Shown here: in pieces, positions 3,709 through 63,615 of the stretch
Layout of the letters: every line of letters starts with the position of its first letter
How positions within the stretch are numbered: position 1 is the stretch's first letter
Origin: Pseudomonas fluorescens
Lineage (GTDB): Bacteria; Pseudomonadota; Gammaproteobacteria; Pseudomonadales; Pseudomonadaceae
Assembly (NCBI RefSeq): GCF_019212185.1
Contig: NZ_CP078138.1
Span: 186,001-250,000 of the forward strand
Reading direction: 5' to 3'
Length of the DNA stretch: 64,000 bases
The notes under the pieces: model-generated
Told to the model about the DNA's origin: nothing
Seen by the model: only the letters and a program-made list of their open reading frames with translations
Database searches by the model: none
Made by a program: the position numbers and the translations under genes

Positions 3709-5082
3709 TCAGAAAAAGCTCAAGCCCACGTGGAACAGCTTCTCCACATCGCGGATGTGCTTTTTATCCACAAGGAACAGAATCACGTGATCGCCGGCTT
3801 CGATCACCGTGTCGTCGTGGGCGATCAGCACTTCTTCGTCACGAATGATCGCGCCGATGGTGGCACCCGGCGGCAATGCGATGTTTTCGATGGCCTTGCC
3901 GATCACCTTGCTGGACTTCGCGTCGCCGTGAGCAATCGCCTCGATGGCCTCAGCCGCGCCGCGGCGCAATGAGTGCACGCTGACGATATCGCCGCGGCGT
4001 ACGTGTGCCAACAGGGTGCCGATGGTCGCCAGTTGCGGGCTGATGGCGATATCGATATCGCCGCCTTGGATCAGGTCGACATAGGCAGGGTTGTTGATGA
4101 TGGTCATCACCTTCTTCGCTCCCAGGCGCTTGGCCAGCAGCGACGACATGATGTTGGCTTCATCGTCGTTGGTCAGTGCAAGGAAGATATCGGCGTCGGC
4201 AATGTTCTCTTCCAGCAGCAAGTCACGGTCCGACGCGCTGCCCTGTAATACCACGGTGCTGTCGAGGGTGTCCGACAGGTAGCGGCAACGCGCCGGGCTC
4301 ATCTCGATTATCTTGACCTGGTAGCGACTCTCGATGGCCTCGGCCAGGCGCTCGCCAATCTGTCCACCGCCGGCAATGACGATGCGCTTGTAGCTTTCGT
4401 CGAGGCGGCGCATTTCGCTCATGACTGCGCGAATATTCGCTTTGGCAGCGATGAAGAATACTTCGTCGTCCGCTTCGATCACCGTATCGCCTTGCGGCAG
4501 GATCGGCCGGTCGCGACGGAAGATCGCGGCAACCCGAGTGTCGACGTTGGGCATGTGTTCGCGCAACTGACGCAATTGCTGACCTACCAGCGGCCCGCCG
4601 TAATAGGCCTTGACCGCCACCAACTGCGCCTTGCCTTCGGCGAAGTCGATGACCTGCAGGGCGCCGGGGTGTTGGATCAGACGCTTGATGTAGTTGGTCA
4701 CGACCTGTTCCGGGCTGATCAGCACGTCCACTGGAATCGCGTCGTTGTCGAACAGGTCAGCGCGGGTCAGGTAGGACGCTTCGCGGACCCGGGCGATCTT
4801 GGTCGGGGTGTGGAACAGGGTGTGGGCCACCTGGCAGGCGACCATGTTGGTTTCGTCGCTGTTGGTCACCGCCACCAGCATGTCGGCGTCGTCGGCACCG
4901 GCCGAGCGCAACACGGTAGGCAGCGATCCGCGACCTTGCACGGTGCGGATGTCGAGGCGATCGCCGAGGTCGCGCAGGCGTTCGCCGTCGGTGTCGACCA
5001 CAGTAATGTCATTGGCTTCGCTGGCCAGATGCTCCGCCAGCGATCCGCCCACCTGCCCTGCGCCGAGGATGATGATTTTCAT
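3709..5082 (-). CDS. trkA: Trk potassium uptake system, NAD-binding peripheral subunit
   Basis: Cytoplasmic regulatory subunit that gates the TrkH/TrkG potassium channel in response to NAD(H) or nucleotides. The 457 residues hold two repeats of a Rossmann (TrkA-N) domain followed by a TrkA-C domain. The first nucleotide loop is [16 protein letters not shown] at the N-terminus and the second is [16 protein letters not shown] near residue 235. Length is normal for the full two-repeat form. It follows rsmB by 22 bases, giving the usual fmt-rsmB-trkA order. Confidence 0.96.
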
Positions 5083-5104
5083 CCAGTCACTCCCTTGGAA
5101 TCGT

Positions 5105-6415
5105 TTAACCGCGCGCGGCGGCGATCTTGATCAGCTTGGCGTAATAGAACCCGTCATGACCACCCTCTTGTGCCAGCAACTGGCGACCATGGGGCTGCTT
5201 GATACCGGCCTGGCTGGCGATATCCAGCTCGCGGGCACCCGGGGTGCGGGCGAGAAACGCCTCGATCACTTCGGTGTTTTCGGTGGGCAGCGTCGAGCAG
5301 GTGGCGTACAGCAGGATGCCGCCCACCTCGAGAGTCTTCCACATGGCGTCGAGCAACTCGCCCTGCAGAGTGGCCAGCGCGGCGATGTCGTCGGGTTGGC
5401 GAGTCAGCTTGATGTCCGGGTGACGGCGAATCACCCCGGTGGCCGAGCACGGCGCATCGAGCAGGATCCGCTGGAACGGTTTGCCGTCCCACCAGGCCTG
5501 AGTGTCGCGGCCGTCGGCGGCGATCAGCTCGGCATCCAGGCGTAGGCGATCGAGGTTTTCCCGTACCCGCAGCAGGCGTTTGGCTTCGAGGTCCACTGCC
5601 ACCACGCCGGCCAGCGCCGGTTCAACTTCAAGAATATGGCAGGTCTTGCCGCCCGGGGCGCAGCAGGCATCCAGCACGCGTTGGCCGGGTGCCAGATCGA
5701 GCAGATCGGCCGCCAGTTGCGCGGCTTCGTCTTGCACACTGATCCAGCCTTCGCTGAAGCCCGGCAGGCTGCGCACGTCGCCTGGCGTGTCGAGGACGAT
5801 GCCGTCCTGGCTGAATACGCAGGGTTGTGCGGCAACACCGGCCTGGTTCAACAGGGCGAGGTAAGCGTCGCGGGAATGATGGCGACGATTGACCCGCAAA
5901 ATCATCGGCGGGTGCGCATTGTTGGCCGCGCAGATGGCCTCCCATTGCTGGGGCCAGAAGGCCTTGAGCGACTTCTGCAGCCAGCGCGGATGGGCGGTGC
6001 GCACTACCGGATCGTGCTCCAGTTCTGCCAACAGCGCTTCACTCTCACGTTGGGCGCGGCGCAGGACGGCGTTGATCAGGGCTTTTGCCCACGGTTTTTT
6101 CAGCTTGTCGGCGCAGCCAACCGTTTCGCCGATGGCGGCATGGGCCGGAACACGGGTGTAGAGCAACTGATACAAGCCGACCAGCAGTAGCGCCTCGACA
6201 TCGGTATCAGCGGCCTTGAAGGGCTTTTGCAGCAGCTTGGCCGCCAGCGCCGACAGGCGTGGCTGCCAGCGCGCGGTGCCGAAAGCGAGGTCCTGGGTGA
6301 AACCGCGATCGCGGTCTTCGACCTTGTCCAGCTGGGTCGGCAGCGAACTGTTGAGCGAAGCTTTGCCGTTGAGCACGGCAGTCAGTGCCTTGGCGGCGGC
6401 CAGACGCGGGTTCAT
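5105..6415 (-). CDS. rsmB: 16S rRNA (cytosine-967-C5)-methyltransferase
   Basis: Methylates C967 of 16S rRNA using S-adenosylmethionine. The 436-residue product has an N-terminal NusB-like RNA-binding domain (about 1-140) and a C-terminal Rossmann methyltransferase. The SAM loop is [16 protein letters not shown]. The two catalytic cysteines lie in [11 protein letters not shown] and [12 protein letters not shown]. The ATG at 6415 ([17 protein letters not shown]) overlaps the fmt stop by 4 bases. The open frame extends further upstream to 6673, but that part is antisense-like sequence over fmt. Confidence 0.95.
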
Positions 6416-7359
6416 TGCGCGTCCACCGCTTGGCCAAGGACGGTGCCGACAGCGAATTTTTCGCGCCGGCTGTTGAACAGGTCGCTGAAGTTCAGGGCCT
6501 TGCCGCCGGGCAGTTGCAGGCGAGTCAGGCACAGCGCCTGTTCGCCGCAGGCAACCAGCAGGCCGTCCTTGCTGGCGCCGATGATTTCGCCGGGGGTGCC
6601 TTTGCCGTCGGCCAAGGTGGCGGCGAGCACTTTCAACGCTTCGCCGTTGAGTGTGCTGTGGCAGATCGGCCATGGATTGAAAGCCCGGACCAGTCGCTCC
6701 AGCTCGACGGCCGGACGGCTCCAGTCAATGCGCGCTTCGTCCTTGTTCAATTTGTGGGCGTAGGTGGCCAGGCTATCGTCCTGCACTTCACCTTGCAGGG
6801 TGCCGGCAGCCAGCCCGGCAATTGCCTGGAGCACAGCTGGCGGGCCCATTTCGGCGAGGCGGTCGTGCAAGCTGCCGCCAGTGTCTTGGGCAGTAATTGG
6901 GGTGTGGACCTTGAGCAGCATCGGCCCAGTGTCCAGACCGGCTTCCATGCGCATCACGGTGACGCCACTTTCTGCGTCACCGGCTTCGACGGCGCGCTGG
7001 ATCGGCGCCGCACCGCGCCAGCGTGGCAGCAGCGAGGCGTGGCTGTTGATGCAGCCCAGGCGCGGAATATCCAGCACCACTTGCGGCAGGATCAGGCCGT
7101 AGGCCACCACCACCATCAAGTCGGGCTTGAGCGCAGCCAGTTCGGCCTGGGCATCGGCGTTGCGCAGGGTCGGCGGCTGCAGCACCGGAATATTGTTTTC
7201 CAGCGCCAGTTGCTTGACCGGGCTTGGCATCAGCTTTTGCCCGCGACCCGCCGGGCGATCCGGTTGGGTGTAGACCGCGACGATTTCGTACGGGCTGTCG
7301 AGCAGGGCCTTGAGGTGTTCGGCGGCGAATTCGGGGGTGCCGGCAAAAACGATGCGCAT
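6412..7359 (-). CDS. fmt: Methionyl-tRNA formyltransferase
   Basis: Formylates initiator Met-tRNA with 10-formyl-tetrahydrofolate. The 315 residues start [20 protein letters not shown] and include the signature [17 protein letters not shown], with the catalytic Asn-His-Asp region (INSHASLLP and, later, DTGPML). A C-terminal OB-fold domain follows. It lies between def and rsmB in the conserved def-fmt-rsmB order. The 56-base gap from def holds an intrinsic-terminator-like hairpin, so fmt may have its own promoter or depend on read-through. Confidence 0.96.
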
Positions 7360-7922: not shown

Positions 7923-8187
7923 AAGCGTAATAGCTGCACGTGTGAAGTTGGGTCAGGGCCGAGGCCACCGTTATAAAACGTCGCCCCCGACAGGAGCGAG
8001 CCCGGCGGGCCCTGGCGTTTTATGCGAACGGACATGATAAAGGGATTCACTGCATGAGTGAATCATTAGTCGCCCTGCGGCTTTGTACCTGGCGGCATTC
8101 GCGGTAAAGCCCTCAACAAGTTACCAACAGAGTTATCCACAGCTTATTCCTGCTAAAGCGGGACCACTTACGATCAAGGATGATCCT
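7923..8187. other. def-dprA divergent intergenic region with a DnaA box
   Basis: 265 bases with no gene that I can support. It holds an inverted repeat (ATAAAACG near 7974 and CGTTTTAT near 8015) around a GC-rich loop, and a perfect DnaA 9-mer TTATCCACA at 8133-8141. In P. aeruginosa a LysM-domain gene lies between def and dprA; no trace of it is recognisable here. Confidence 0.6.
8133..8141 (+). promoter_or_regulatory. Perfect DnaA box upstream of dprA
   Basis: TTATCCACA matches the consensus DnaA 9-mer exactly. Another perfect copy lies inside dprA at 8751-8759. Their role away from oriC is unknown; they could titrate DnaA. Confidence 0.5.
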
Positions 8188-8873
8188 ATGCCCTGCCCTG
8201 AAAATTCGCCGATATCCCCGGCCGAACTTGAAGCTCGCCTGCGTTTGCATTGCCTGCCGGAACTGGGGCAGCGACGTTATCTCAAACTGTTCGAAGCCTT
8301 CGGTTCAGCATCCAAAGCCCTCAGTGCGCCGGCCAATGCCTGGCGATCCCTGGGCCTGCCGGCATGTTGCGCCGAGGCCCGACGTAGTCCGCTGGTGCGC
8401 GACAGCGCCCAGCATGCCCTGGCCTGGCTTGAGCGCGAAGGCCAGCATTTACTGATGTTCGACCAGCCCGGTTACCCCGCATTGCTGGCCGAAATCAGCG
8501 ATCCGCCGCCGTTGTTGTTCGTCGCTGGCGATCCGACCATCCTGGAAAAACCGCAACTGGCGATGGTCGGCAGTCGACGCGCGTCCAGGCCGGGCATGGA
8601 TACCGCCGCGGCGTTTTCCCGCAGTCTGGCGGGTGCCGGTTTTGTCATCACCAGCGGCTTGGCCCTGGGGATTGATGCGGCAGCGCATCAAGCCGCGCTG
8701 GATGTGGGCGGTCAAACGATTGGGGTGCTGGGCACCGGCCTGGAAAAATTTTATCCACAGCGTAATCGGCGTCTGGCCGAGATGATGATCGCCCAAGGCA
8801 GTGCAGTGATTTCCGAATTCCCGCTCGATGCTGGGCCGCATGCCGGCAACTTCCCTCGGCGCAACCGGATCAT
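8188..8873 (+). pseudogene. dprA: dprA, 5' fragment (interrupted by an integrative element)
   Basis: DprA loads RecA on single-stranded DNA taken up during natural transformation. This fragment codes MPCPENSPISPAELEARL and about 229 residues in all. It has the N-terminal helical (SAM-like) domain and most of the Rossmann domain, including GSRRASRPG, TSGLALGIDAAAH and FPRRNRII. At 8873 homology stops within the conserved block RNRIISGLSLG. The frame continues about 34 codons into the element and ends at 8976. The remainder of the gene resumes at 13697. The ATG at 8188 was chosen because homology begins there. Confidence 0.93.
8865..8873 (+). repeat. Left attachment core (attL)
   Basis: CCGGATCAT, identical to 13693-13701. 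The bases before it are dprA and the bases after it are element. The element-side arm at 8893-8899 (CCGAGTG) mirrors the right arm. Confidence 0.85.
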
Positions 8874-8917
8874 AATCCCATGGTATATTTCTCCGAGTGA
8901 AATTTGGAGTCACCTTG

Positions 8918-10588
8918 ATGCCCGCCGCCTACGCCTACATACGCTATTCCAGAGCAGTCCAGCAGACTGGCGATAGCGAAGATCGTCAATTCACGGCCCT
9001 TGAATTGTTCGAGCACACCATAGGCATGGCCATTGCCGAAGTGGTCTACGACCGTGGCAAGTCTGCGTTCCGGGGCGACAATGCGAAGACAGGCAAGTTT
9101 AAGGAGATCCTCAACCGTATCGAGCAAGGGGGCATCCAGAAGGGTGATTACCTTGTCGTCGAATCTATCGACCGGATCACCCGGCAACGGGTGCTGGACG
9201 GCGTGGAATTGCTTCAAGGCATCTTGAAGAAAGGGATCAATATCTACACCACCACCGACCAGAAAACCTACTCCTACAACGACCCATCAAAAGACTTTGA
9301 AAACCTTTTGATGATTAGTCTTATCGCTAAGCGAGCAAATGAGGAAAGCGAAACCAAATCGAACCGCCTCTTATCATCGTGGAAGAAACGCCGCGAAAAG
9401 GCCAAAAGCGGTGGAATAATTATTACGAAAGGGAACTCAATTCCTTATGGGCTTCGCGTTGTAAATGGTCAGTTTACTATTGACGAAGATGAGCAAAAAG
9501 AAATCAACAGGCTCTTTGAATCTCTTTTGATTTACGGCCTGAATACCGCAGTTAAAAAAGTCAATCAGTACTCGAAGAAAGTGTGGCACAACGCCACTGT
9601 TACTAAACTAATTTCCAGCAAATCAGTTATTGGCTGCCTTGCCACTAATAGAATGGAATATATAAATGGGAAAGCCAAGAAAATTCCCACCGGTTTTATT
9701 GAAAATTATTATCCTCAACTGATATCTCCGGCTCTCTTTTATCAAGTAATCGACAAGATGAAGGAGCGTAAAGCAAAAAATTATAATGGAAGAAGAACCG
9801 AGCAGGATTTCAATATCTTCAAAAATCAGATTTTTTGTTTTTCTTGTGGCGGTAAACTCTATTATGACCACAGAGGTAGCCGCTACAAAGGAAAGATTTA
9901 CCCGTATTTCAAATGTAATACTAAACGGTTAAATCCAAGAGAATGTGGCACTGATAACATTCGCTTTGAGTATATTTTCGGACTACTTCTGAAAGGTCTT
10001 GAAAAGCTTAAAAAAGTGTCAGATGTTTGGAGCCTTTTAGATATTGATGAGGGGGAGGCAGGAAAAAATAACCGCCTAAATGTTCAATTTAGTGGTTTAT
10101 TGAGGCGACCTTCTTCGATTGATACCAATGCTCAAGTTGAGCAAAAGTCAGCCGAATTAGGGCAACTTAGGACGACCTACGAAAATTTATCTATCAGTAT
10201 TAGGGCTTTCAGTGGGAAAATTCCACTCCCAGTGATGCAACAGCTTTCCGAGGTCGAGACCAAAATAGAAGAACTTACCCAAGAAATCGAAGCCTTAGAA
10301 GCGGCCAGCCCTAGTGCTGCTATAAACATTGACGACTATAAGACTATCATCGATTTGTTCATGACTGAGGAAGGTAGAGCCAAAATCAATACTTTCTTTA
10401 AGGAAAATGATATCGTCTTTTATGCCGAGCATCATAAGCAGTCAACCCTCAGTCAGTTGAAAATCGCAAGAGTTGTTGGCGACACCAACGAGGAGTTAAT
10501 CCATACAAGTGCATTTTTACCTAAAAAACAGATTTTAAAAGCGTGGAACTTAACCGACCTACAAGATATGTTTGATTTGTCAGTATAA
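8918..10588 (+). CDS. Large serine recombinase (site-specific integrase)
   Basis: Catalyses integration into dprA and probably excision through a phosphoserine intermediate. The 556-residue protein has an N-terminal resolvase domain with YAYIRYSR (Ser11 nucleophile, Arg9) and the second active-site block ESIDRITRQR. Next comes the recombinase domain. A zinc ribbon follows, about residues 306-350: FCFSCGGKLYYD, then paired cysteines in KCNTKRLNPRECG. A coiled coil rich in Glu/Leu spans about residues 405-465. ATG 8918 follows GGAG at 8906-8909 with good spacing; an in-frame GTG at 8897 is an alternative. The gene sits directly inside attL, usual for integrases. Codon use turns AT-rich after about 9290. 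A TATATT -10-like box is at 8884-8889. Confidence 0.94.
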   Translation: MPAAYAYIRYSRAVQQTGDSEDRQFTALELFEHTIGMAIAEVVYDRGKSAFRGDNAKTGKFKEILNRIEQGGIQKGDYLVVESIDRITRQRVLDGVELLQGILKKGINIYTTTDQKTYSYNDPSKDFENLLMISLIAKRANEESETKSNRLLSSWKKRREKAKSGGIIITKGNSIPYGLRVVNGQFTIDEDEQKEINRLFESLLIYGLNTAVKKVNQYSKKVWHNATVTKLISSKSVIGCLATNRMEYINGKAKKIPTGFIENYYPQLISPALFYQVIDKMKERKAKNYNGRRTEQDFNIFKNQIFCFSCGGKLYYDHRGSRYKGKIYPYFKCNTKRLNPRECGTDNIRFEYIFGLLLKGLEKLKKVSDVWSLLDIDEGEAGKNNRLNVQFSGLLRRPSSIDTNAQVEQKSAELGQLRTTYENLSISIRAFSGKIPLPVMQQLSEVETKIEELTQEIEALEAASPSAAINIDDYKTIIDLFMTEEGRAKINTFFKENDIVFYAEHHKQSTLSQLKIARVVGDTNEELIHTSAFLPKKQILKAWNLTDLQDMFDLSV

Positions 10589-10594
10589 AATTGG

Positions 10595-11644
10595 TCACAA
10601 GGTGTATTTTCTTTTTCTTCGCACCTTGCTTGATATGGGCTTATTTTCAGCCGTATAAGGCTCAGCCTCTACCTCAGCCTGCTCTATCGAACTAAACATA
10701 ACCATTTCTATTTCATCGTCATACGTCGGGTGTTTTTGAATATTTTCAGCTCGTTCGATAACCTCGACTTTATTCAGCTCCTCCATAATAGGGTCATCGG
10801 TCTTAATGCTTTTAATCCACTCGGTTAATGATATTTTAAATTGAGTAAACAATCCTTTCATCTCATTCAAGAGTGAGATCGAGCGATCAGCATCAGCCTT
10901 GGCCATTCTAGCGGTTGCTGTGGCTTCCTGTGCTGAAATTCTGGATTGCTGGGCCAGCAATATCTGGCTGGCGGCTTCCTGAGCCGCACCAGCAGCCTCT
11001 GTTTTTAATTTGATGGACTTTTCCTGTTCGTCTCTAAGTTTTTGCTGTTCAAGCTTCCAGCTTTCCAATCTTTTGCCACGGCTTGTATTCACCGGCTTAT
11101 AATTATCATAGTTGATACTACAATGCTTCATAACAGACGCATTAAATTCTTGTTTTAACGCCACTATCATTCCCTTTTTATCCAGCTTATCTAGTCTTTC
11201 CCCCTTGTATATGCGTGGAATTAAAAGGTTCATATGGGGTTTATTTTGGTCGTGTAGGTTTGAAAAACAATTCCTGCCAAAGTCATTAACAGGTTCATCA
11301 GGTTTTAAGTGCTTATGAGCTGCCCTAATCATATCAGCCGAAATTTTCTTCCATTGTTCATCGGTGGGTTTTCGCACTGTATCAGGCAAACCCAGCACAA
11401 AGCTTTGTGCATATGATTCAACCTTTCTACCACCCTTTTTATTGGACATATCAAAGTCCAATGTTTCACATATGGCACCTTTCACAAACTCACTAATTTT
11501 GCCATGCAATGGCACTATACGGGTTTCATTTTTTGCATGGTTCTTATGCTTTTCATCCAGCAAGTATTTTGAATAAGCAACTAATCCGTCTTGTCTTTCT
11601 TTAACTCGTTGCGATATCACTGTCCAGTTTTTGATTTTTGCCAT
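10595..11644 (-). CDS. Relaxase-like mobilization protein (MobV/Pre-like, divergent HUH motif)
   Basis: 349 residues. The segment HDQNKPHMNLLIPRIYKG (about residues 131-148) resembles the motif of MobV/Pre relaxases, which read H-x-D-E-x-x-P-H-x-H. Here the last His of the pair is Asn (PHMN). Tyrosines at about 24 and 27 (VAYSKYLL) are candidate nucleophiles. Residues about 190-260 form an Ala/Gln/Glu-rich coiled coil and the C-terminus is basic (VRRKRKYTL). It is convergent with the recombinase (6-base gap), and its start faces a hairpin cluster that could be oriT. The family assignment rests on one motif; a replication initiator or other HUH-type nuclease is possible. Confidence 0.6.
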   Translation of the reverse strand: MAKIKNWTVISQRVKERQDGLVAYSKYLLDEKHKNHAKNETRIVPLHGKISEFVKGAICETLDFDMSNKKGGRKVESYAQSFVLGLPDTVRKPTDEQWKKISADMIRAAHKHLKPDEPVNDFGRNCFSNLHDQNKPHMNLLIPRIYKGERLDKLDKKGMIVALKQEFNASVMKHCSINYDNYKPVNTSRGKRLESWKLEQQKLRDEQEKSIKLKTEAAGAAQEAASQILLAQQSRISAQEATATARMAKADADRSISLLNEMKGLFTQFKISLTEWIKSIKTDDPIMEELNKVEVIERAENIQKHPTYDDEIEMVMFSSIEQAEVEAEPYTAENKPISSKVRRKRKYTL

Positions 11645-11934
11645 GATAAAATGTACTGTTGATATGTATGTTTTACCACGAATTTAAATAACTTCAACTA
11701 CTCTGGTTATTATAAGGTATTCAAGATAGGACAACCCTTCGGGTTGACGGCTTCGCCTTCCTACTTGTTAGGGGGATACCCCCTAATACCCCAGCCCTGA
11801 CGGGCTTAAAAGCAAGAGCAAAAGCAAAGCAAGAAATAAGAAAAAAGCCATCCTGATAATTCTTTCGTTTTAGCCCTTGAAAATCGAAAAATACATGGTA
11901 TTGGTATTATGGATACTAAAATGGAGGAATCATT
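11645..11934. promoter_or_regulatory. Candidate oriT: hairpin cluster upstream of the relaxase-like gene
   Basis: This non-coding stretch separates two divergent genes. It contains three tight inverted repeats in a row: CAACCC-TTC-GGGTTG (11732-11746), TTAGGGGG-ATA-CCCCCTAA (11768-11786) and AGCCC-TGAC-GGGCT (11793-11806). Such repeats beside a relaxase gene are the usual layout of a transfer origin; no nick site can be assigned by eye. The remaining bases are AT-rich, with A-rich direct repeats after 11808. Confidence 0.5.
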
Positions 11935-12138
11935 ATGGCCTATGAAGAAATAAAAATTGATTGGAGTAACGTTGAGCAGGTTAAAGTGGCAAGAAATATT
12001 GAGGTCTTATATTTCACAAAAATAGTTAAGCCTCTTTATAAAAAAGGGGAGTTGCCACGGGAGGAATATGACGAGGTACGTAATAACGCAATAAGGCTAA
12101 ATACCCTGTATGAAAATCTTATAGCTAACCCGCAATAA
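11935..12138 (+). CDS. Small acidic hypothetical protein (67 residues)
   Basis: MAYEEIKIDWSNVEQVKVAR and onward; largely helical by appearance, charged, with no membrane segment or known motif that I recognise. It is supported as a gene by a strong ribosome site (GGAGG at about 11922), an intrinsic terminator right after the stop, and a single-cistron layout. It lies between the candidate oriT and the structured RNA. It could be an accessory relaxosome or regulatory protein, but nothing in the sequence shows this. Confidence 0.7.
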   Translation: MAYEEIKIDWSNVEQVKVARNIEVLYFTKIVKPLYKKGELPREEYDEVRNNAIRLNTLYENLIANPQ

Positions 12139-12140
12139 AT

Positions 12141-12163
12141 AACCCGCCATAGAGCGGGTTTTT
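12141..12163 (+). terminator. Intrinsic terminator of the 67-residue gene
   Basis: AACCCGC and GCGGGTT pair in a perfect 7-bp stem with a 6-base loop, followed by a T run. It begins three bases after the stop codon. Confidence 0.85.
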
Positions 12164-12175
12164 ATTGTCTTTAAT

Positions 12176-12203
12176 TTGACATTACGGAATTAAATGGTAG
12201 CTT
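12176..12203 (+). promoter_or_regulatory. Sigma-70-type promoter for the structured RNA
   Basis: A perfect -35 box TTGACA (12176-12181) is followed after 16 bases by TAGCTT (12198-12203), a -10 with T, A and final T conserved. The predicted start is about 12209-12212, just before the first hairpin. No ribosome site or open frame follows. Confidence 0.6.
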
Positions 12204-12210
12204 GTAAAAA

Positions 12211-12703
12211 GGTGAACCCCAAATGTAGTTAGCATTTAGAGTTCGGCGTTGACACTGATGACAGCAGTATCAACTTGTAATTAAAGTTATATCATATAAT
12301 TTTAACTCTTCAAGTCCCTTCTGCTGTAAAAACTCAATAACTATAAGAAAATCAGTATTAACTCCTGTAAGCAATGTTGGAAATTCAAGAGATTGTTCCG
12401 TTGCGTAGCCTAAGAGGAATAGAATGGGGATACTGGAAATTCTTCGACCCGCCAGCCATATAGCGATATATGTTGAACAGGGTTCCAGTGTGGCGATGAT
12501 AGCTTGTTAGCCACTATAGTGTTCAAAGCTTAAACTGAGTATCACTGAATTTAAGCCCTGAGAAAGTAGCAAATCAGGTCAGGCTTTACTTGTTTTTTTT
12601 GATAAAAACGAGGAAGACCAGATTTGCCTGAGAAGATCAAAGGCGTAGCCTTCTTCGAAGGCAATTCTGGAATTAAAAAGCGAGAAAAGCCCAAAGGCTT
12701 TTT
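12211..12703 (+). ncRNA. Candidate large structured non-coding RNA (about 490 nt)
   Basis: No open frame of size exists on either strand here, yet the region is full of inverted repeats that suit an RNA read on the plus strand. H1: GAAC/GTTC with AAATG/CATTT (12214-12244). H2: 10 bp with one mismatch (12248-12274). H4: ACTGG/CCAGT, GACCC/GGGTT and CATATA/TATATG closed by a GCGA tetraloop (12432-12489). H5: GTGGC/GCCAC (12490-12514). H6: GCTTAAA/TTTAAGC (12528-12556). H7: 12 bp with one mismatch plus an inner 9-bp stem (12569-12627). H8: GCCTTC-TTC-GAAGGC (12648-12662). It starts behind a consensus-like promoter and ends in a terminator. I do not recognise the family. No reverse transcriptase, Cas or TnpB gene is near. 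Confidence 0.6.
12685..12703. terminator. Terminator ending the structured RNA unit
   Basis: AAAAGCC, loop CAAA, GGCTTTTT. It has a T run on the plus strand and a T-containing run on the minus strand, so it could also serve the convergent orphan genes at 12780-13530. Confidence 0.75.
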
Positions 12704-12779
12704 GAGTAAATAAAGAAGATATCTTTATAGTAAGAAGACACACGTACCCACCCGCGATTCTTCCCTAGAACCACATTAA

Positions 12780-13184
12780 TCAGCTAATAAAGTCAATCGC
12801 CGAAACCTTTCCAGCAATTGCTATAAACCAATCCGATTCAATCTCTATCAACTCTCCCCCTAGAAATAAATCATCCTTATTGAAGCTTAGAATTTCCCTT
12901 GGCGTCGCGTTGGAGTTTTTTGCGAGACACATTACCATATAGCACTTAGCTCCCCCCTTAATAAGCTCAATATGGCTAAGACGCTCCATATAACCGAGGT
13001 TGTCCTGACCCTCACCGTATTTTTGCAAGTGCGAGAGCTGCATATAATGGGTGGTGTCACGCTTTACTTTTCTATCCTGCCATACACGTAGAATAACTGC
13101 TCCATCGTCGCGTATTCCGCCCCAAGACCACCGAGGGTTTTTAAGTGGCGAACCAAGTATTTTAAAGAATTGCGTCAAGTTCAT
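12780..13184 (-). CDS. Hypothetical protein (134 residues), element cargo
   Basis: A soluble protein beginning MNLTQFFKILGSPLKNPRWS, followed by WGGIRDDGAVILRVWQD and later AKCYMVMCLAKN. The aromatic-rich N-terminal block reminds me of unnamed domains found in proteins near restriction or nuclease genes, but I cannot name a family. No signal peptide or membrane segment is visible. The ribosome site GGAGG lies four bases before the ATG. It is downstream of the 106-residue gene in the same direction (25-base gap), so the two probably form an operon near attR. Confidence 0.7.
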   Translation of the reverse strand: MNLTQFFKILGSPLKNPRWSWGGIRDDGAVILRVWQDRKVKRDTTHYMQLSHLQKYGEGQDNLGYMERLSHIELIKGGAKCYMVMCLAKNSNATPREILSFNKDDLFLGGELIEIESDWFIAIAGKVSAIDFIS

Positions 13185-13209
13185 ATGGCCTCCAATATGC
13201 TGAATTCCA

Positions 13210-13530
13210 TTACTTAGTTTTATACGGGGTTAATATAACAGGATAGCACAAGTCATAAATAGTACGAGCCAGAGTCTGGTCATAGTCTATCCAGCATCCT
13301 GTTACAACCACACCCTCACTACTCCAAACACCTCCGTCAGATGAGTCAGAGTAAATCCACCAGATTGATTTATTTTCCAATATGGCAAACCAGTTTGAAT
13401 ACCCGGATGGGAGATGCTGCCGTAGTAATCCTTTTCTTTCACTCTCTGCTGCACTTTCCCAAGATCGGAAACGGCTGACCGTTGTGCCGTTCTTAACTAT
13501 GTATAGCCGGATGCTTTCTCTGGTGTCCAT
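13210..13530 (-). CDS. Hypothetical protein (106 residues), element cargo
   Basis: Starts MDTRESIRLYIVKNGTTVSR and is rich in Trp and Ser in its middle (ENKSIWWIYSDSSDGGVW). I recognise no family. It is probably cytoplasmic, since no signal peptide is seen. It is the last gene before attR and probably the first of a two-gene operon with the 134-residue protein. Such right-end cargo is often accessory (defence, toxin or immunity), but that is inference from position only. Confidence 0.65.
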   Translation of the reverse strand: MDTRESIRLYIVKNGTTVSRFRSWESAAESERKGLLRQHLPSGYSNWFAILENKSIWWIYSDSSDGGVWSSEGVVVTGCWIDYDQTLARTIYDLCYPVILTPYKTK

Positions 13531-13692
13531 AGTGAGCCTTTTTTCTGCGATAGCCCAAATATACCAAACGAATGGAATCCCGCTCTAAAAGGACATATCC
13601 GTGGCCGGTTGCCCTTCTGCTCCCCAAAGGCACGGGTACAAGTCCCCGAACCTTCGGCGACCTCGATCAAAAATCACTTGGTAAAACGTATG

Positions 13693-13701
13693 CCGGATCA
13701 T
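13693..13701 (+). repeat. Right attachment core (attR)
   Basis: CCGGATCAT, identical to attL. The left side is element and the right side resumes dprA. CACTTGG at 13675-13681 in the element arm is the mirror of CCGAGTG at 8893-8899. Confidence 0.85.
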
Positions 13702-14119
13702 CAGTGGTTTGTCCCTCGGGGTGCTGGTGGTGGAGGCCAGTGTCGCCAGTGGTTCTTTGATTACTGCACGGCTTGCTGCTGAACAGGGGCGCGAGGTCTA
13801 CGCCATCCCGGGCTCCATCCATCACCCGGTCGCCCGAGGCTGTCACCAGCTAATTCGTGATGGCGCGGTGCTGGTGGAAACCATCGAGCACATTCTCGAA
13901 GGGCTACGGGGCTGGCAAAACCTGGCGGTGCCCGCGCAACCGGCCGTGGCTCTCGATCATCCCCTGCTCTGTTTGCTGATTGCTGCACCGCATACCAGCG
14001 AAGCCTTGGCTGACGCCTGCGGCTGGACATTGCCGAAAGTGCTGGCGGCCCTGACCGAGCTTGAGATGGATGGGCGCGCCGTGTGTGAAGGCGGACGCTG
14101 GTTTGCCCGCCTAAGCTAG
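13697..14119 (+). pseudogene. dprA: dprA, 3' fragment
   Basis: Resumes DprA exactly where the 5' fragment stops: IISGLSLGVLVVEASVASG, then AIPGSIHHPVARGCHQLIRDGA and the C-terminal winged-helix DprA domain ending FARLS. About 140 codons. A TTG at 13709 could in principle start an isolated fragment, but no ribosome site is evident. Excision of the element would rebuild an intact gene of about 369 codons. Confidence 0.93.
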
Positions 14120-63459: not shown

Positions 63460-63591
63460 GAATGGGTGGTGAAGCCCTTCGATGCTCCTATGTTGTGTTA
63501 AGTGTTGGCAGATATCTGGACCCCGCCCTAGCGGTCCGGAGTACTTAAACCCCGAACTCTCCCTCCCCATATGAGTTTCGGGGTTTTTTTT
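63460..63591 (+). ncRNA. ersA: ErsA (Spot42-like) small RNA downstream of polA
   Basis: Between polA and engB, the position of Spot42 in E. coli and ErsA in Pseudomonas. The unit from the predicted start (about 63460) to the T run at 63591 is about 132 nt, the known ErsA length. It ends in a strong terminator: AAACCCCGAACTC (63547-63559) pairs with GAGTTTCGGGGTTT (63573-63586), then eight T. A GC-rich hairpin GGACCCCGCCC lies before it. ErsA is an Hfq-dependent regulator of envelope and virulence genes in P. aeruginosa; the same role here is inference. Confidence 0.75.
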
Positions 63592-63615
63592 GCCTGGAAT
63601 TCGACCCTGTTCTCA

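Follow-up and report, generated by a model that had tools for sequence, protein, structure and literature searches.

A small integrated element that interrupts dprA in Pseudomonas fluorescens carries a region predicted to give rise to a long structured RNA and to a short antisense RNA that covers its start, and this region is likely to be the maintenance module of a group of such elements in Pseudomonadaceae, most likely an RNA-primed origin of the ColE1 kind. Comparison of related sequences gives good support to the sense RNA as an evolutionarily conserved and new structure with no match in Rfam, as well as to the pair of sense and antisense RNAs in the aligned members. From these sequences we infer a role of the RNA in replication, and we consider it rather probable that the region acts as an antisense-controlled, RNA-primed origin that maintains the excised element without a Rep protein. 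Two separate arguments lead to this reading: a long, structured RNA that does not run into a gene and whose start is covered by an antisense RNA is the plan of ColE1, and, independently, the RNA stands where a Replicase gene is found elsewhere. The DNA analysed here (the window) is a 64,000-nt stretch of a host genome that consists of one 6.34-Mb contig.

The element and its genes

The element divides dprA into two halves (8083-8976 and 13709-14119), both of which match PF02481, and its borders (Table 1) were taken as the longest word common to the two junctions. The 349-aa protein encoded after the integrase has no Pfam model of its own and is, as judged from its sequence, a probable HUH relaxase (type A). 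The named residues of the stretch H-D-Q-x-x-P-H-x-N, which we take to be the HUH relaxase motif, are invariant in 20 aligned sequences, with the window's protein among them, and the AlphaFold model of the protein is confident (pLDDT 87); PF03432 (Relaxase) is reached by 1 of the 23 members of the relaxase A family that were scanned, with E 0.0038. A further relaxase-like family (type B, represented by 5211-6980 of the related locus L034) is likewise devoid of its own Pfam model. Many homologues of the relaxases lie on metagenome contigs of 2.5-3 kb. The two reverse-strand ORFs of 134 and 106 aa (12780-13530), with zero matches in Pfam, NCBIfam and PADLOC, are cargo of the element. Far from it, the window also contains the ErsA (Pseudomon-1) small RNA (63482-63599, 127.7 bits), an ordinary chromosomal feature.

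Table 1. Features of the dprA element and of its RNA region, in window coordinates
Feature	Position	Strand	Remarks
Integrated mobile element in dprA	8865-13701	.	4.8 kb; 9-bp direct repeat CCGGATCAT at 8865-8873 and 13693-13701
Large serine recombinase (integrase)	8897-10588	+	PF00239 7.7e-18, PF07508 4.7e-08
Probable HUH relaxase (type A), 349 aa	10595-11644	-	HDQxxPHxN and N-terminal tyrosines conserved
67-aa ORF, no assigned function	11935-12138	+	Stop 38 nt upstream of the RNA promoter; terminator-like hairpin after the ORF
Sense RNA promoter	12176-12203	+	TTGACA (12176-12181)-N16-TAGCTT (12198-12203); spacing kept in 10/10 aligned members
Antisense RNA (RNA I-like), predicted	12206-12279	-	About 70 nt, two hairpins; ends inferred
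Sense structured RNA (RNA II-like), predicted	12210-12680	+	5' end inferred from promoter, 3' end from last conserved helix
SL1, 12 bp, common to both RNAs	12214-12244	.	4 pairs with two-sided changes; on the antisense strand also the terminator stem
SL2, 10 bp, common to both RNAs	12248-12274	.	
Antisense promoter	12286-12313	-	TTGAAG-N16-TATAAC; TG one base before the -10
Conserved core, model R2	12419-12558	+	GGGG 12426-12429, helices and GNRA hairpin
Core helix	12432-12438/12483-12489	+	Model R2
GNRA hairpin (GCGA in the window)	12457-12472	+	Model R2
Pseudoknot helix	12473-12479 (TTGAACA) with 12520-12526 (TGTTCAA)	+	L007 and L058 show compensatory changes
Core helix	12490-12494/12510-12514	+	Model R2
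Core helix	12528-12534/12550-12556	+	Model R2
3' helix	12618-12629 with 12659-12670	+	Two-sided changes, pairing kept
Terminator-like hairpin	12685-12703	+	Absent from half of the aligned members
134-aa ORF, no assigned function	12780-13184	-	Convergent with the sense RNA
106-aa ORF, no assigned function	13210-13530	-	

Structure and conservation of the sense RNA

A first-pass annotation had described this region as about 490 nt with seven or more densely packed stem-loops behind a promoter of its own, with a GCGA hairpin among the stems, and all of these are present in the sequence. The + strand between 12204 and 12710 has a folding energy of -143.1 kcal/mol, compared with -114.9 +/- 5.2 kcal/mol for 100 dinucleotide shuffles, none of which is as low (z -5.43). 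Three control stretches of 501 nt from the same element give z of -0.8, -1.8 and +0.6 (60 shuffles each). Ten members could be aligned (the window, L006, L007, L008, L009, L018, L033, L034, L035 and L036), in which the distance from the promoter to the trimmed end of the RNA is 432-527 nt; nine of them have fold z between -4.6 and -8.9, and L009 has -1.5 (60 shuffles each).

The MAFFT alignment comprises nine sequences and 626 columns, with L009 left out on account of its unalignable 3' part. When the structure drawn for the window is applied to these nine sequences, 85.0% of the cells form pairs, and 30 pairs (53 cells) show changes on both sides, far above the shuffled alignments (14.2 pairs and 17.5 +/- 3.3 cells) and above controls in which the structure was slid along the alignment (at most 11 pairs and 19 cells). 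The relatives thus preserve the stems while their sequences change, as would be expected if the first-pass annotation was right about a structured RNA. The support is unevenly distributed in the 5' part, where on the sense strand SL2 has no pair with two-sided changes and SL3 has one. There SL2 competes with a rival pairing of 12254-12267 with 12321-12327 and 12351-12356, which is partly covarying. For a late alternative fold of three segments, the downstream pairing reaches p<0.05 in 8/9 sequences, the upstream pairing in only 4/9.

The conserved core of the RNA is modelled by R2, a covariance model built from the nine aligned sequences. It found a diverged copy, L058 (E 2.4e-12), from which nothing had been taken for the structure and in which standard pairs make up 33 of the 34 that can be counted. 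The pseudoknot helix, absent from the R2 model, is nevertheless kept in L058 with a compensatory change. When L058 is added to the core as a tenth sequence, 96.1% of the cells are paired and 46 cells have two-sided changes, compared with 12.4 +/- 2.8 after shuffling, in an alignment that was fitted to the model and so favours these counts, unlike the nine-sequence MAFFT alignment, which was not fitted. By eye, the hairpin of the core ends in a GNRA tetraloop (GCGA, GAGA, GTGA or GAAA) in 9/10 core-bearing copies, the loop of L036 being longer. L058 (1330-1965) keeps the core and has a different 5' domain, whereas L009 (6023-6582) keeps the 5' domain and lacks the core, with its low z and no R2 match. 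Since one copy has only the 5' domain and the other only the core, the RNA seems to be built of two exchangeable modules.

Between the GGGG and the trimmed RNA end there are 220-278 nt in 9/10 members and 351 nt in L009. A 12-bp stem had been proposed at 12569-12627; it can be drawn, with 11 of its 12 pairs by eye, yet the minimum-energy fold does not use it, and the pairing best supported across the relatives joins its 3' arm to a later segment (the 3' helix of Table 1). The hairpin that had been taken for the RNA's own terminator is present in the window, but as a terminator it is not conserved, being found by eye in 5/10 aligned members and missing from L033, L034, L035, L036 and L009. Just after the RNA, within about 120 nt downstream, there are tracts of alternating purines and pyrimidines ((CA)n and (TA)n, up to 52 nt), significant at p<0.05 in 8/10 members, the window and L009 being the two that do not reach it.

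Neither a gene nor a known RNA family accounts for the region. No ORF of at least 25 aa is common to all ten aligned members, in keeping with the earlier statement that no open frame explains the region. Three ORFs of at least 25 aa have peptide words in at least three other members, with differing lengths, starts and frame; the most widely shared words belong to an ORF on the opposite strand (6/10 members including itself, with differing lengths), and sense-strand words are common to at most 4/10 members, in which lengths and start codons differ. By eye, changes in the length of the core shift the frames between close relatives. A coding function was rejected on these grounds. A role as leader of a downstream gene, or as its riboswitch, was also rejected, because the next gene in the window is convergent and the RNA can be no leader there. 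The search of the whole 64-kb window with Rfam 15 gave nothing at gathering score except ErsA, and a permissive search of 11880-12780 gave matches at chance level only (best E 0.21), so that the region matches no Rfam family. GOLLD, ROOL, HEARO and retron RNAs are large structured non-coding RNAs on mobile DNA, and a resemblance to them had been suggested. The RNA described here differs from them in having an antisense partner and no Rfam match, and no reverse transcriptase was found among the proteins of the window's element scanned against Pfam; the suggested resemblance was rejected on the Rfam result and on the absence of a reverse transcriptase from the scanned proteins.

The antisense RNA

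The first-pass annotation had not noticed the antisense RNA, which is the feature most telling on function. A promoter of the form TTGA[AC]N-N16-TATAAC lies on the opposite strand at a fixed place in 10/10 aligned members, with mean pairwise identity of 0.86 in the -35, 0.56 in the spacer and 1.00 in the -10; two members match the -35 consensus TTGACA perfectly. Such a site occurs in 0-2 of 2000 dinucleotide shuffles per sequence. The predicted transcript would have its start 72-80 nt past the last base of the sense -10, and it folds into two hairpins in 6/6 members for which folding was done, the second hairpin being in the window a terminator stem followed by TTTTT. In L058, with its different 5' domain, no antisense promoter of this kind was found inside the RNA, so that antisense control may not be common to all copies.

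The wobble pairs indicate which strand is selected as structure. In the overlap of the two RNAs (SL1 and SL2), read on the sense strand, there are no G.U and 13 A.C cells, and these 13, of which one column contributes 7, read as G.U on the opposite strand; a further 15 cells in SL2 are neither pairs nor A.C, and are unpaired on either strand. Beyond the overlap, the sense strand has 24 G.U and 3 A.C cells, as well as 26 other mismatches. The asymmetry has a Fisher probability of 0.003 by columns and of 5e-8 by cells, the latter being too small because the sequences are related. The antisense RNA therefore looks selected as structure, and the sense RNA is selected downstream of the overlap.

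Distribution and genetic surroundings

Besides the window, ten further copies were found, every one of them in Pseudomonadaceae. The RNA was detected by blastn in 5/398 genomes of the genus, with its own genome counted, and R1, a covariance model built on the 5' part, gave the same hits. R1 matched 7/398 genomes of the family and, among 369 of the class, only its own genome; R2 matched 5/136 family genomes. The hit sets of blastn, R1 and R2 overlap. A promoter pattern added one member, from P. alcaligenes (genome G435), and the pattern scan of genomes yielded 11 stretches, 3 of them true members and 8 due to chance; one of the chance stretches (L013) has 28 nt of promoter in common with L006. 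Plasmids of PLSDB, searched by blastn with six members (the aligned ones other than L006, L018, L033 and L036) and with L058, include no carrier of the RNA, and the sole match is 39 nt in Monoglobus. Collections of phages and of E. coli gave nothing with the window sequence as query. In viral contigs, the promoter pattern gave L021, which has no blastn match to the members, and the core pattern gave none.

The genes around the RNA vary considerably. An integrase is visible in 9/10 aligned members, the remaining one (L006) beginning at a contig end inside the relaxase gene; the integrases are of the serine type, with a tyrosine integrase in L009 (L034-L036 being assigned by eye). Three kinds of relaxase, without mutual tblastn similarity, occur at the RNA loci: relaxase A in the window and L008, relaxase B in L018, L033, L034, L035 and L036 (weakly in L035, E 2e-6), and the MobP-like relaxase C in L006, L007 and L009. 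The RNA promoter begins no more than 38 nt past the stop codon of a same-strand gene in 8/10 members; in L033 it is 115 nt from the gene, and in L035 the neighbouring gene is oppositely oriented. The element of L034 consists of an integrase, a relaxase and the RNA, with a right border placed by eye only: between 4900 and 7700 each of the other ORFs of at least 40 aa either overlaps the relaxase or falls below 60 aa, and from the integrase to about 7.7 kb no further ORF of at least 60 aa lies outside the relaxase.

Another insertion in dprA is found in L035 (2268-6725, genome G497), with an integrase very similar to that of the window (first 70 residues, by eye), a different relaxase and, as cargo, a restriction-modification pair of the BglII type (PF09195, PF02086). 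The contents of L035 and the window suggest that relaxase and cargo are exchanged around an integrase and an RNA that are kept. In L008, an AbiD/Abi_2 abortive-infection protein is encoded at 4361-5293 (PADLOC PDLC02344, 8.9e-54). It is the cargo of that one element, and four proteins of the window's element (a set outside which the integrase stands) have no PADLOC match, so that a defence system was rejected. The earlier proposal of a new class of RNA in maintenance, copy control or defence thus survives in part: the evidence favours a new structured RNA that is linked to copy control or maintenance of the element, and does not support a role in defence.

Either-or distribution of the RNA and Replicase genes

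The relaxases make it possible to compare loci with and without the RNA. A search with a relaxase B protein (P0158) gave 10/298 family genomes, three of which (G470, G574 and G632) were RNA carriers already found. Among the other seven regions, six have a Replicase gene (PF03090 with PriCT_1), presumably of the ColE2-type Rep family, 0.2-4.1 kb from the relaxase, with no match to R1 or R2; these six were compared as regions around the relaxase rather than as delimited elements. The seventh is L058, in which the RNA core is present and the Replicase queries have no match. There are thus four relaxase B loci with the RNA and without Replicase, and six with Replicase and without the RNA (Fisher p = 0.0048), although these ten are not independent events, because the relaxases of the RNA loci are closer to that of L034 (43-78%) than are the relaxases found beside Replicase (30-33%). 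No Rep gene was found by tblastn with eight Rep queries in the ten RNA-bearing regions, of which L006 is cut by the contig end.

Relaxase A is also found on four PLSDB plasmids of 2.4-4.1 kb. RepL or Replicase is present in 3/3 of those scanned; the fourth, L045, which is close to L044 in size and layout, was outside the scan. The RNA has no credible match on these four plasmids: R2 gave none up to E 1, and the best match of R1 with filters off (E 0.076) is a promoter-like fragment.

Comparison with known systems

The arrangement most similar to that of the element is the control region of ColE1, for which one report places the start of RNA II at -555 and of RNA I at -445 from the origin and describes two alternative folds of RNA II (PMC11012335). 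Both systems have a sense RNA of about 500 nt (here predicted, with a promoter conserved in 10/10 members), overlain in its 5' part by an antisense RNA from an internal promoter (predicted here at about 70 nt, in a range of about 70-110 nt). Hairpins are common to the two RNAs in each case, candidate alternative folds of the sense RNA, partly supported, are seen here, no Rep gene is seen at the RNA loci, and mobilization genes are nearby. Unlike ColE1, the RNA of the element has a core that contains a pseudoknot and a GNRA hairpin, sits in integrated elements with an integrase and is found on no PLSDB plasmid. No similarity to ColE1 sequences was detected by nhmmer, and there was no match to the Rfam family RNAI. 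The likeness is one of plan rather than of demonstrable descent.

A 2021 survey of ColE1 plasmids describes types from Vibrionales and Pasteurellales whose control region has two stem-loops instead of three, and counts two ColE1 plasmids in Pseudomonadales, where it leaves distant variants as a question (PMC8683028). The antisense RNA described here has two hairpins as well, although it lies in chromosomes of Pseudomonadaceae. A 2017 review speaks of an unexplored world with regard to how excised mobilizable elements persist when cells divide; the replication factors in its section 2.2 are all proteins (Rep_3, RepA/RepC and RCR initiators in integrative mobilizable elements with Rep genes), with no RNA-based origin named in that section (PMC5704250). 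Like those elements, the ones described here are small and integrated, with an excised form that needs maintenance; unlike them, they have an RNA in the place of the Rep gene. The titles and abstract openings found in searches of open-access literature, with few subscription papers among it, report neither such an RNA nor the priming of an origin by RNA in integrative mobilizable elements.

Alternative explanations

Conservation of both RNAs, in surroundings where the RNA adjoins different genes and in the window faces a convergent one, would also be expected of a regulatory RNA that acts in trans, is inhibited by its antisense RNA and has no role in replication; its targets would be genes for excision, relaxase or transfer, either in the element itself or in a helper element. 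No common target in trans is evident for such an RNA, because the loci differ in their relaxases (three types, dissimilar by tblastn) and in their integrases (tyrosine and serine), and the either-or pattern with Replicase genes would be left unexplained; we consider this explanation rather unlikely.

That dense hairpins lie on an element with an HUH-like relaxase recalls the single-strand origin sso1 of ICEBs1, a non-coding region which is reported to be important for maintenance and acquisition of that element (PMC4595007), and the region could by analogy be a single-strand origin or a single-stranded promoter in relaxase-driven rolling-circle replication. We, too, propose a non-coding region by which the excised form of an integrative element is maintained, but sso1 acts as single-stranded DNA in rolling-circle replication, whereas the constraint in the present case is at the level of RNA and on both strands. 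The sense-strand wobbles, G.U and not A.C (24:3) and reversed in the overlap (0:13), fit two RNAs and not folded DNA, and two sites for double-stranded promoters are conserved on opposite strands, which makes a single-strand origin quite improbable. Long structured RNA with an overlapping antisense RNA on mobile DNA is, in turn, the layout of hok/sok, and a type I toxin-antitoxin system, in which the long RNA would be a toxin mRNA that kills cells losing the element, would match it; peptide words of a sense-strand ORF in L006 recur in L007, L035 and the window (4/10). As no ORF of at least 25 aa is present in all ten members, sense-strand words never extend beyond these 4/10, and the core is under base-pair constraint, we regard a toxin mRNA as very improbable.

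Proposed mechanism

In the antisense-controlled origin that we favour, a sense RNA of about 470 nt would start at about 12210 in the excised element and fold into the pseudoknotted core with its GNRA hairpin, and its 3' end would stay on the DNA, or return to it, and prime DNA synthesis there. The antisense RNA of about 70 nt, covering the first 70 nt or so of the sense RNA and binding it via the hairpin loops, would tip it into a non-priming fold and thereby set the copy number. The element could in this way outlive cell division while it is excised for transfer, without a Rep gene. We infer transcription, priming and antisense copy control, as well as the participation of host DNA polymerase I and RNase H; the 3' end of the primer and the RNase H site were not located. 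Within the chromosome, an active origin would need tight control, which is assumed here. A fuller formulation, to which we give even chances, is that small integrative and mobilizable elements of Pseudomonadaceae maintain their excised form by a protein-free origin with a pseudoknotted, antisense-controlled primer RNA. This RNA would belong to a new family in which a rapidly exchanged 5' module for copy control recombines with a core that forms the hybrid with DNA, and the family would take the place of Replicase-type Rep genes in elements that are otherwise alike.

Implications

If this reading is true, an RNA origin of about 500 nt, outside Rfam and without detectable similarity to ColE1, changes places with Rep genes in these elements, and it would be a second natural system in which the folding of a primer RNA is under antisense control. 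It would further offer Pseudomonas genetics a candidate replicon that does without Rep. The open questions of how excised elements survive, and of whether distant ColE1-like origins exist in Pseudomonadales, would gain a concrete object that can be tested.
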